DNA of 46,381 bases. Origin: Brasilonema sp. CT11. Lineage in GTDB: Bacteria; Cyanobacteriota; Cyanobacteriia; Cyanobacteriales; Nostocaceae. The stretch is from assembly GCF_017982655.1 (NCBI RefSeq), contig NZ_JABXYX010000058.1, forward strand, positions 1 to 46,381, written 5' to 3'. A program made the position numbers and the translations under genes. Shown here piece after piece: positions 35,241 through 37,918 of this stretch (position 1 is the first letter of the stretch; every line of letters begins with the position of its first letter). The notes under the pieces are model-generated. The model saw only the letters and a list, made by a program, of their open reading frames with translations. It was not told the DNA's origin and ran no database searches.

Positions 35241-36311
35241 TTACATCAAGGTTTGTTCAGGCATCATGCACTTATCAGAGTCGCAACCTGCTGGTCCTGC
35301 TTCGATTAAATCGCCGAAATCATAGCGGCTTAAAACAGCATGAAAGTCTTCTGTTTTGCGGTGCATTTCCACTTCTTTCATCAGCTGATCGTACCGTTGT
35401 TTTGTTATCGGCTCAAAAGGTAAGCGAGGAAAAGTTTGAAGGTCGTCAAACCGTGCCAGAAGTGCAGCACTGATGTAGCCTTGATCATTTTTGATGGCTT
35501 CGTATATCCGAGTTCCTAAGGTTTCAACTTCATTTTCCCGTAACTCAATGGTAGCAGAGGTGTTATGTGTGACATAAAATCTCTGTACCTGCATGTAGAA
35601 ATCTATTTGGGCGATCGCACTAAATTGACTGATATCTATTTTATCAGCACCTGGTAAATCGGCCCAGGCTACAGCGACCGGAATTTCCACCAACCATTCG
35701 CTGACTCGCGGATCGAAGGGGTCATTCAACAATGTACCGTCGTCATCTTTATCTGATTGGGAGGGTATAACGTTGTACCCATACTCAAGACAAGCCAAAG
35801 CAACGGGATCATTTTTGCGACAGGTAATACGACGTATAAATCTTTGTGCTTTGGGGGGATGCCATCCGGGGCTAGCACCTGTCAACAGAGACTTGGTACC
35901 ACTTGGTTGAACTGTGGTGCAGCGGTTTGGACGTTTTAAACCGTGGCGATCGCAGTAATCCCAAACAACACGATGTACAGTTTCTTTCCAAAAACTTAAG
36001 TATTCCTCCTCTTGACGTTTAAACGCCAATCCTTCATCGGTTGCAGGTCTTCCTTTTTCCCACCAGCGCAACCAATCAACCCCAAAAGCATGAACAAAGA
36101 AATCAAATAACCCAGTAAAAGAAACACCGACAATTGGGTCTAATTCGCGGCTGTACTGGTAGCGGGGTTCAATAAATTTGTGATGTAGAAGCGCTGCTAC
36201 AGACAAAGCACCAGCGGTGAAAGCTTCCTCCTGTTCTTTGGAGTTATTTGGATCAATTTGGTTGAGGTGAATTTCTGAGAGATTGCAGTGAAAATTTGAG
36301 CCAATAATTTC
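35241..36311 (-). CDS. nrdJ: Class II ribonucleotide reductase, 3' exon
   Basis: This is the second exon of the adenosylcobalamin-dependent reductase, 356 codons beginning EIIGSNFHCNLSEIHLNQI at 36311. Treated alone it would need a TTG start with no rationale, whereas after intron removal it continues the active-site motif NPCG-E. It includes RYQYSRELDPIVGVSFTGLF, the QPSGTKSLLTGASPGWHPPK nucleotide-binding segment and a C-terminal redox pair in GPAGCDSDKCMMPEQ (CxxxxC). The joined protein is 765 aa, normal for the class. The enzyme makes deoxyribonucleotides with a cobalamin-generated thiyl radical. Confidence 0.9.
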   Translation of the reverse strand, partial: EIIGSNFHCNLSEIHLNQIDPNNSKEQEEAFTAGALSVAALLHHKFIEPRYQYSRELDPIVGVSFTGLFDFFVHAFGVDWLRWWEKGRPATDEGLAFKRQEEEYLSFWKETVHRVVWDYCDRHGLKRPNRCTTVQPSGTKSLLTGASPGWHPPKAQRFIRRITCRKNDPVALACLEYGYNVIPSQSDKDDDGTLLNDPFDPRVSEWLVEIPVAVAWADLPGADKIDISQFSAIAQIDFYMQVQRFYVTHNTSATIELRENEVETLGTRIYEAIKNDQGYISAALLARFDDLQTFPRLPFEPITKQRYDQLMKEVEMHRKTEDFHAVLSRYDFGDLIEAGPAGCDSDKCMMPEQTLM

Positions 36312-36691
36312 CAATTTTGTTATCCTAAAGGCTTTTTATCCCTTAGTTCTGGAGGTTTCCCTCATAGCCATTGCTGGGATACAACTGGTCAATTCCAGTT
36401 CAGTTCAGCATAACTTTTCTACTATTTCGTAGCCGGGGACTCGTGGGGGTATTATATTCTTTTCGGTTATCAGTTCCCACTGTTCACTCAAAAGGTTCAA
36501 CCCCTATGCGTTGCACTACCTTATACTTTTTAATTATATGGTTAGCTCAAGATTAGCATACAGTTATTAATGAGTCATTTTATAGTTAGTTAATAATAGT
36601 TTTTGAAATTTTAAATAACAATTAAAAACTCACCTTTTCTGCTTAGCCTTCCTTGAATTTCCCCGGTTTTTAACGTGAGGCAAAACTATCT
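36312..36691 (-). ncRNA. Group I intron in nrdJ
   Basis: The reductase frame breaks after NPCG (ending at 36692) and resumes at EIIG (36311). The 380-nt insert begins AGATAG and ends in G, as group I introns do. Exon 1 ends in U, and the exon end CGUGUGGU pairs with GCCUCACG inside the intron (36674-36681) at seven of eight positions, with G.U at the splice site: a P1 helix with its guide. The seven nt just before that guide (UAGUUUU) pair fully (two G.U) with exon 2 GAAAUUA, a P10 helix. No endonuclease ORF is present. Group I introns in cyanobacterial reductase genes have been described, so the type is known. The core P3-P8 was not folded. Confidence 0.88.
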
Positions 36692-37918
36692 ACCACACGG
36701 ATTTAATGCGTAACGAGCCAAACGATGCTCTAATTCACTTTCAGAAATTTGAGGATAATGCTCTTGCAACCAATCTTTGGCTTTACCCAGAGCATAAGCC
36801 TTGAGAAAATCTACTTTTTGTTCATGATTTTTCAAAAGATCACAATTAGCTCTAGCGACAGCTTCACCAGCCCATTGAATCGCACCTTCACCGCTGTAAT
36901 ACTGTTTGCGGACAGCATCAATACATTCTTCTAATGTGGGCTTTTGATGAAAAACTCTTGTATGGTTTGCCATCCTCAGAGGATCACGCTCTGGATCGAT
37001 GCGCCAGTTGCCATTTTCATCCTGTTGCCATAGATTATCCTTGGCAACTGCAAATAAATGATCCTCACTAGAACTTTGACGTATACCAGCTGATCGTCTA
37101 ATGTTACCAGCAACAATTGTGACAGCTGCTCGATCAATTAATAAACAGCATTCAACAGAGTTTAACTGTCGTCCTACAGCTTTATTCAAAATGGATGCAC
37201 AATGCTCGTACAATTCTGGTAATTTTACAGGATTCGCAACTCCTCCAAAACCGTTGAGAGGTTCTCCTGCTTGACGTACGTCGCTAAGATCAACAATAAC
37301 TTGAATGTCTTTTGAAAATCGTTCATCGGTTGAGAGTTCCAACAAGCTTTGATAAGATTGCACCCAACCTTGACGGCTATCTCCAACGTAGATAGTGACA
37401 AGATGACTCTCAATTTTGACTTCTGTCTGCTCGCGACGCTGACTTGGTGGCGTCATACCAATTTCACCTTGCACTTGTACATCAAGGTGATTACGGATAG
37501 GGGGCAACTTGTTGATATATTGTGATTCTAAAACAGCTCCAGTCCCGCAGCCCATCATTGCCAAATCCATCATCAACCCGAAAGCACTCCAGTCTTGCAG
37601 GTTGGTAGATGTACAGTTATAAGCCCCAGAAAAGTTTTTTTGCTCTTTTATCCAATTTGTACCGCCAACCCATAACCAACGTCCGCTAGGTAGTGCTTTC
37701 AAGTTTCGCTGCATCCGTTGTAAAATATCAGCTTCGTGTGGAAGTAACTTCCCGATGGTGATCAAGCCATCGATAGTGCGATCACACACCTGATCCCAAG
37801 TCTCTCTGACTCCAGCCTCTTGACGACGGCTATAGGTTCTAAAAAACACTGGATTGGCAGCTGGGGCAGTTTCTGGAAATTTTGCACCTTGGCGTTTCTT
37901 TTCAAGTTCACGAACCAT
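36692..37918 (-). CDS. nrdJ: Class II ribonucleotide reductase, 5' exon
   Basis: First exon, 409 codons from ATG 37918. It contains SGAYNCTSTNLQDWSAFGLM, with the reductant Cys102, and LAMMGCGTGAVLESQYINKL. It also contains the segment SAGIRQSSSEDHLFAVAKDN and ends ARYALNPCG, where Cys408 is the thiyl-radical residue (NPCGE motif of class II). Without splicing the reading frame would meet Arg then TAG immediately after Gly409. It is monomeric and B12-dependent, so it depends on the cobamide pathway that includes cbiA in this window. I saw no cobalamin riboswitch in the 37919-38180 leader. Confidence 0.92.

Follow-up and report, generated by a model that had tools for sequence, protein, structure and literature searches.

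The window, the whole stretch of 46,381 nucleotides from Brasilonema sp. CT11 analysed here, raises the question of how a reductase gene can yield its product when its reading frame breaks off inside the NPCGE motif. Its nrdJ gene (minus strand) is interrupted by a 380-nt insert, 36691-36312, between the Gly and the Glu of this motif, of which C408 and E410 are presumably catalytic, by analogy with the Lactobacillus enzyme. Taken as a whole, the evidence is best explained by a group I intron whose splicing rejoins Gly and Glu, a reading to which we give a probability of about 94%. P1 would position the 5' splice site at the U.G pair that follows the Gly codon, P7 would bind the guanosine that cuts there, P10 would align exon 2, and the freed end of exon 1 would attack after the terminal G, joining Gly to Glu and restoring NPCGE. 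The exact site, the homologues at the same site, the core traced by covariation and the in-frame stop are direct results; the splicing chemistry, and splicing in the intron's own cell with or without helper proteins, would be those expected from knowledge of group I introns. The window copy offers a clean candidate ribozyme intron for testing, placed where a central enzyme has its catalytic codons, and it can be compared with dozens of relatives.

The interrupted nrdJ gene

The frames end exactly at Gly and resume exactly at Glu, as the earlier note had it, and both halves match TIGR02505, the profile of adenosylcobalamin-dependent ribonucleoside-triphosphate reductase (Table 1). Reading past ...LNPCG into the insert gives R and then a stop, which leaves an unspliced nrdJ frame of 410 aa. 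The insert stands in phase 0, its length of 380 nt is not a multiple of three, its second codon is an in-frame TAG and its last base is G, the terminal base already claimed for it. Its description as ORF-less also held, the window ORF check returning no ORF of at least 60 aa wholly inside it on its own strand. It is a single copy within its own genome.

Table 1. Features of the interrupted nrdJ gene and its insert, in window positions
Feature	Positions	Strand	Basis or detail
nrdJ exon 1	36692..37918	minus	409 codons, ends ...LNPCG; TIGR02505 E 2.1e-100, profile positions 16-378/724
P1 exon strand CGUGUGGU, U.G at 5' splice site	36692..36699	minus	anchors, comparison
Very probable group I intron, 380 nt	36312..36691	minus	site, homologous inserts, covariation, fold, RF00028 weak match
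In-frame UAG, second intron codon, also start of P10 strand	36686..36688	minus	sequence
P10 intron strand UAGUUUU	36682..36688	minus	anchors, covariation
Internal guide sequence (P1 3' strand) GCCUCACG	36674..36681	minus	anchors, comparison
P3 5' strand CCGGGG	36661..36666	minus	anchors and covariation
P4 5' strand UCAAG	36652..36656	minus	anchors and covariation
P5 and loop, enlarged in window copy and nearest relatives	36555..36648	minus	by eye
P4 3' strand CUUGA	36547..36551	minus	anchors and covariation
P7 5' strand GCAUAG	36504..36509	minus	anchors and covariation
P7.1/P7.2 region; site of the GIY-YIG endonuclease gene in relatives L034, L085	36446..36503	minus	comparison, unaided fold
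P3 3' strand CCCCGG	36433..36438	minus	anchors and covariation
P8 hairpin	36419..36432	minus	anchors, covariation, unaided fold
J8/7 AAAAG	36414..36418	minus	motif anchors
P7 3' strand UUAUGC	36408..36413	minus	anchors and covariation
P9.2 hairpin (our own label)	36325..36346	minus	anchors, covariation, unaided fold
Terminal G of intron	36312..36312	minus	sequence
P10 exon 2 strand GAAAUUA	36305..36311	minus	anchors, covariation
nrdJ exon 2	35241..36311	minus	356 codons from Glu (EIIGSNF) and stop; TIGR02505 E 6.2e-116, positions 379-723/724

The earlier note also held that the B12-dependent supply of DNA precursors needs splicing. For the B12-dependent route itself this may fairly be said, because the unspliced frame ends at 410 aa. 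The same genome holds uninterrupted class I-type genes side by side, one NrdA-like (771-aa open frame) and one NrdB-like (384-aa), and the total dNTP supply therefore need not depend on nrdJ splicing. These two stop-free genes would suit a history in which the insert is a degenerate group I intron that has lost splicing, with nrdJ reduced to a pseudogene and its task left to the class I enzyme. We consider such a decay very improbable: the window copy forms its core helices, both exons are open, with 94.9% (exon 1) and 98.6% (exon 2) amino-acid identity to the nearest NrdJ among the kept loci, that of Brasilonema angustatum (L001), and the near relatives L001, L002, L003 and L077 all retain the intron.

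Ribozyme core and splice-site pairings

No Rfam family was found in the window at the cutoff. In a permissive search the best match was RF00028 (Intron_gpI), with 25.2 bits against a cutoff of 50 (E 2.2e-4); it stops at the P3 3' strand, short of P7, and runs about 60 nt into exon 1. The group I covariance model that the earlier note had named as a check thus came out as the best match and stayed under its cutoff, whereas a different group I intron at the same site of another nrdJ (L041) passes it with 75.1 bits. The match being weak, relatives and covariation were used.

Full-length alignments put the P7 3' strand of the window's clade in the wrong place, and strands from 41 introns (the window and 40 loci) were therefore taken by motif anchors, which gave 33 distinct rows of 102 columns. 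L041 was excluded as a different intron, the last of two anchor matches was taken by hand in L028, and L038 and the window's clade had P9 replaced by N. Standard pairs form in 94.6% of the 1643 cells of these rows, against 79.7% in shuffles and 36.6 to 49.3% in slid controls, counts that the self-chosen anchors bias towards structure and that shared ancestry also inflates. Two-sided changes affect 231 cells (76.8 in shuffles) and 25 pairs (19.9 in shuffles), and the covariation score is 0.394 versus 0.133. On four of five measures none of 500 shuffles equalled the real set; on the fifth, further pair types, 5 of them did.

Across the same 33 rows, the cells of P3 (99.0% paired), P4 (100%), P6 (100%), P7 (86.4%) and P8 (98.2%) each include two-sided changes, P5 standing outside the count. 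P7 is GCAUAG/UUAUGC (5'/3') in the window and otherwise GACUAG/AUAGUC, GCGUAG/GUACGC or GCGUAC/GUACGC, plus small variants, with a sixth pair formed in 6 rows and absent in 27. All counted pairs form in the window copy except the P1 U-U and the last of five P8 pairs. An unaided fold of the exon end and intron, which none of 100 shuffles matched in stability (z = -4.36), contains P1, P3, P4, P8 and P9.2. The P3-P7-P8 core is thus present as a P3-P7 pseudoknot with compensatory changes, and the lack of such a core, which the earlier note had named as a refutation, was not borne out. Because of the homologues at the same site (42 of 80 loci), the covarying core helices and the stability of the fold, the insert is more than chance; a pseudogene made by a random insert was rejected.

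The low score from the general RF00028 model might also be taken to mean a group II intron or some other kind of insert. This has next to no probability in view of the covarying P3-P7 pseudoknot, the P1 with U.G and the terminal G, and no Rfam family reached its cutoff in the window; a group II intron was rejected, as was an intein, the length being out of frame and stop codons standing in frame. Identity as a group I intron, which the earlier note had proposed, is carried by P1 with its U.G, the P3-P7 pseudoknot with P4-P6 and P8, the terminal G and P10.

Subgroup IA is defined by extra stems, P7.1 and P7.2, between P7 and P3. The intron probably belongs to it, because of its P7.1/P7.2 region, with a stem that shows up both by eye and in the unaided fold, outside the covariation count, and because of its likeness to phage sequences. 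Stretches in several phage records, among them Caldibacillus phage CBP1, Yersinia phage phiR1-37 and Bacillus phage AR9, resemble the 3' half of the intron, with identities of about 71 to 73% over 90 to 147 nt, a similarity by sequence alone; the phage matches amount to 44 records, 20 of them listed, none of which spans 80% of the query. In the introns of L018, L019, L029 and L036, the P8 loop holds a common GTGTTGAGC...GGAGCC insert resembling a small dispersed repeat.

Both splice-site pairings that had been drawn by eye do form: in P1, CGUGUGGU pairs with GCCUCACG at 7 of 8 positions, with U.G at the cut and a single U-U mismatch, and in P10 all seven pairs of UAGUUUU with GAAAUUA are standard. 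The U.G at the 5' splice site occurs in 33/33 structure rows and 65/65 distinct introns, and G is the last base of the window copy and of the 41 further introns listed. The bacterial P1 is constant apart from its end pair; two-sided change is found only in two viral sequences, and the P1 covariation comes from these sister introns.

The codons under P1 are CCG TGT GGT in 42/42 carriers versus 3 of 32 readable non-carriers (5 of 37 being unreadable), an association that is inflated by shared ancestry, yet carriers and non-carriers are intermixed on a quick NrdJ tree (95 rows, exon 2). On this tree, a guide only because long branches meet near the viral rows and two of these (L149, L154) are placed among bacteria, the bacterial intron label needs 17 changes, 7 of them forced by starred branches. 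One intronless nrdJ, L007, retains CCG TGT GGT and adjoins carriers on the tree, a possible precise loss.

P10 cells are paired in 90.5% of cases (33 rows), and P10 covaries across the splice junction at exon 2 position 6, with A-U in 16 rows, G-C in 11 and other combinations in 6. The 65 distinct introns form a mean of 6.35 of the 7 pairs, against 6.09 with shuffled partners (maximum 6.20 in 2000); all seven are present in 47 introns and fewer, down to 3, in 18, and six Anabaena-type rows have just 3 or 4 in the tested register. With GAAATTA or GAAATCA at the start of exon 2, the matching P10 strand starts TAA, TAG or TGA, which in the window is in frame, and a stop lies within the first three intron codons of 64/65 distinct introns. 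We infer that a ribosome would halt ahead of the ribozyme core; a stop codon doubling as P10 strand would be a simple tie between translation and splicing.

The intron family in bacteria and among known introns

A scan of genome contigs with exon 1 gave 136 relatives, of which the best 80, cyanobacterial by their titles, were kept. The intron family stands at the exact same site, NPCG/E (the slash marking the insertion point), in 42 of these best 80 nrdJ loci, L046 and L047 included. The position, which the earlier note had singled out, is instead a widely common one in cyanobacterial nrdJ; the window intron is of a kind already known and is not unique. Besides L041, the remaining 37 loci are without the family: 17 align straight through the site, two of them (L059, L062) with an insert eight codons downstream, and 20 have other inserts nearby, at NP/C (408), near FHC/N (417) or less sharply placed (L070, L074). 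These 20 look like inteins, as their lengths are multiples of three.

Several genes hold more than one element. In L046, L047, L118 and L125, the CG/E intron is accompanied in one gene by an intein-like insert after FHC, eight codons downstream. Upstream of its intron, at ~1176-1484, L118 also has roughly 240 additional nt that contain stops and lie between residues 386 and 409 of NrdJ, possibly another intron. A single genome (G156) contains two nrdJ copies, L114 and L115, each with its own intron of the NPCG/E family.

The L077 intron belongs to the window's clade (97/89), yet its NrdJ pairs with that of L004 (82), whose intron lies in another clade (100/97). Because these groupings disagree, the intron has likely been exchanged among bacteria too.

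Beyond nrdJ, an RNA model of P4-P6, built on an 18-row alignment with some coordinates set by hand and the window's clade excluded except L006, matched 59 of 291 genomes of the order. Thirty-two of the places were read: 25 lie in nrdJ (at least 56.7 bits) and 7 elsewhere (at most 52.8 bits), two of the latter, L112 and L123, passing RF00028. The score is no clean divider, because the window's own copy receives just 38.6 bits, and the model may miss copies of the window's clade. The weak off-site matches include a tRNA-Met in L113 (ARAGORN) and one more partial tRNA in L110 (Rfam), and the L031 intron, used to search plasmids, had a single weak match, in Clostridioides difficile. The genome of the window itself contains a second group I intron-like stretch, on contig C391 (30813-31000, minus strand; L121 1414-1601), with 28.6 bits from RF00028 (cutoff 50); by eye, its host gene reads like rtcB and the ORF that follows has LAGLIDADG-like motifs.

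Group I introns are familiar in such genes: PMC2795772 counts over 100 of them in RNR entries. One from Nostoc punctiforme PCC 73102, lying in its ribonucleotide reductase (RIR) gene, is attributed to Meng et al. 2007 in PMC12702839, PMC1995217 and PMC3984707, and one citing review places it under nrdE. As far as these citations describe it, it resembles the window intron in being a group I intron of a cyanobacterial ribonucleotide reductase gene. Another strain of the species, N. punctiforme NIES-2108 (L031; not strain PCC 73102), has the NPCG/E intron family in nrdJ at the same site as the window. By its title, the paper of Meng et al. (J Bacteriol 189:2150) reportedly concerns an intron with an insertion sequence element, whereas the window copy has 380 nt and no ORF, a comparison by description only. 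IStrons (PMC4227781) likewise join a group I ribozyme to mobile DNA; the window copy, in contrast, is 380 nt without ORF or transposon gene.

Viral relatives and endonuclease genes

Three large metagenomic contigs of IMG/VR, viral by that database's call, carry the intron family at the same nrdJ site: L085 (151 kb), L135 (147 kb) and L166 (200 kb). The bacterial intron of Anabaena sp. UHCC 0204 (L034; 896 nt) contains a GIY-YIG gene (Pfam E 2.3e-10), and a search of viral contigs with this endonuclease gave 9 loci, the best being L085, 77% identical and inside a same-site nrdJ intron. A pattern search returned 15 viral stretches, two with the intron in nrdJ (the L085 contig again, and L135); a third case, L131, has a faint reductase likeness, but its pattern lies on the opposite strand. 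With the window's exon 2, 80 of 112 viral nrdJ loci were kept, and one of the 80, L166, has the intron (blastn E 1e-4, 249 nt, ORF-less). An exact-match pattern of the window's own subfamily found no viral contig.

PHROG matches in sampled stretches include DNA polymerase, head protein and tRNA-His guanylyltransferase on the 151-kb contig, DNA polymerase and exonuclease on the 147-kb contig and a terminase small subunit on the 200-kb contig. The scan of chosen ORFs gave no match for 9 of 20 proteins (5/10 and 4/10), and a terminase was not found in the viral records with Pfam PF03237 (one record) or with phrog_2 (three records), which we take to be the terminase large subunit.

A phage occurrence of the NPCG/E nrdJ intron was not found reported in the open full-text literature as far as its accessible text goes, including PMC3653736, PMC6293099, PMC2814812 and PMC5050341; a report elsewhere is possible. 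What appears new is the presence of this family in large viruses at the same nrdJ site, and the relatives suggest travel between bacteria and viruses.

This likeness might reflect the conserved ribozyme core alone, without bacteria-virus exchange. The intron tree (67 rows, L115 of 68 being dropped for a missing anchor; root for drawing only) has 196 columns of constrained core and is unrooted, the contigs are metagenomic and viral just by IMG/VR's call, and the place of L149 and L154 among bacterial NrdJs means that whole genes move too. We nevertheless regard a core-only likeness as unlikely. L085 and L034 share 77% identity in their endonucleases, against 64.9% in their exon 2 DNA and against 57% between the exon 2 product of L085 and that of the window; the introns of L085 and L034 are 79.2% identical over about 890 nt. 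The viral introns also stand at two places among the bacterial ones, L085 and L135 beside five introns of Anabaena type (96/86), L166 beside L118 and L124 (90/99), and no branch has the three on one side in any of 200 bootstrap trees. The NrdJ tree groups them differently: a starred branch (100) separates L085 and L135 from every bacterium and from the remaining viral rows, and L166 is placed with viral rows (80).

Judging from these relatives, the window intron would come from a family that homing endonucleases have mobilised and that large viruses share at this nrdJ site, and it would be a copy without endonuclease gene; neither a match nor a remnant of the L085 or L135 endonuclease was found in it. 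The relatives make concrete the question of whether phages carry introns into or out of bacterial housekeeping genes: with the same gene and phase, an endonuclease gene in a virus and in a bacterium, and remnants in bacteria, cleavage and homing can be predicted directly.

The L135 intron differs from that of L085 in its gene, which lies in P8 rather than P7.1; this 273-aa frame scores 17.6 bits with NUMOD3 (cutoff 20.4, E 0.0036), a weak match, and by eye has a PD...E.K pattern. This endonuclease gene may be broken, because its start lies in another frame. Among bacterial introns, L039 and L104 (E 4e-14) contain pieces of it, interrupted by gaps and stops, and weaker matches occur in L103 (E 0.004) and L102; L061 retains DNA resembling the ends of the GIY-YIG intron. 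In L120, a 650-nt intron of the NPCG/E family follows NPCG, and by eye its P8 loop holds a broken piece like the L135 endonuclease.

The L085 gene has a further peculiarity, a stretch of 127 codons, from SLRGDANLLTTEG to VVTHN, immediately before CG and ending two codons upstream of the intron; its Pfam intein match lies below the cutoff (25.4 versus 35.8 bits, E 1.3e-5). The exon end is here ATTGTGGT and the guide GCCTCAAT, so that P1 matches the intein-like stretch. L135 has CTTGTGGT and GCCTCAAG at these places, and L166, with 60 of the 65 distinct introns in all, has CGTGTGGT and GCCTCACG. The three changed P1 cells in the viral introns all pair, with a chance of 6 in 16 each, which is suggestive, and not proof, of an adjustment of the guide to the intein-like end.

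We lean, with some reserve, towards a wider view in which one intron family would shuttle between filamentous cyanobacteria and large phages at NPCG/E of nrdJ, driven by at least two unrelated endonuclease genes and ending as ORF-less copies such as that of the window. In one virus, the active site would then be built by RNA splicing followed by protein splicing two codons apart, with a guide altered so as to pair with the intein gene's end, that is, a ribozyme adapted to a neighbouring intein. Inserts starting at residue 408 (NP/C), probably inteins, are also found in ten viral nrdJ loci, such as L160, L168 and L198.
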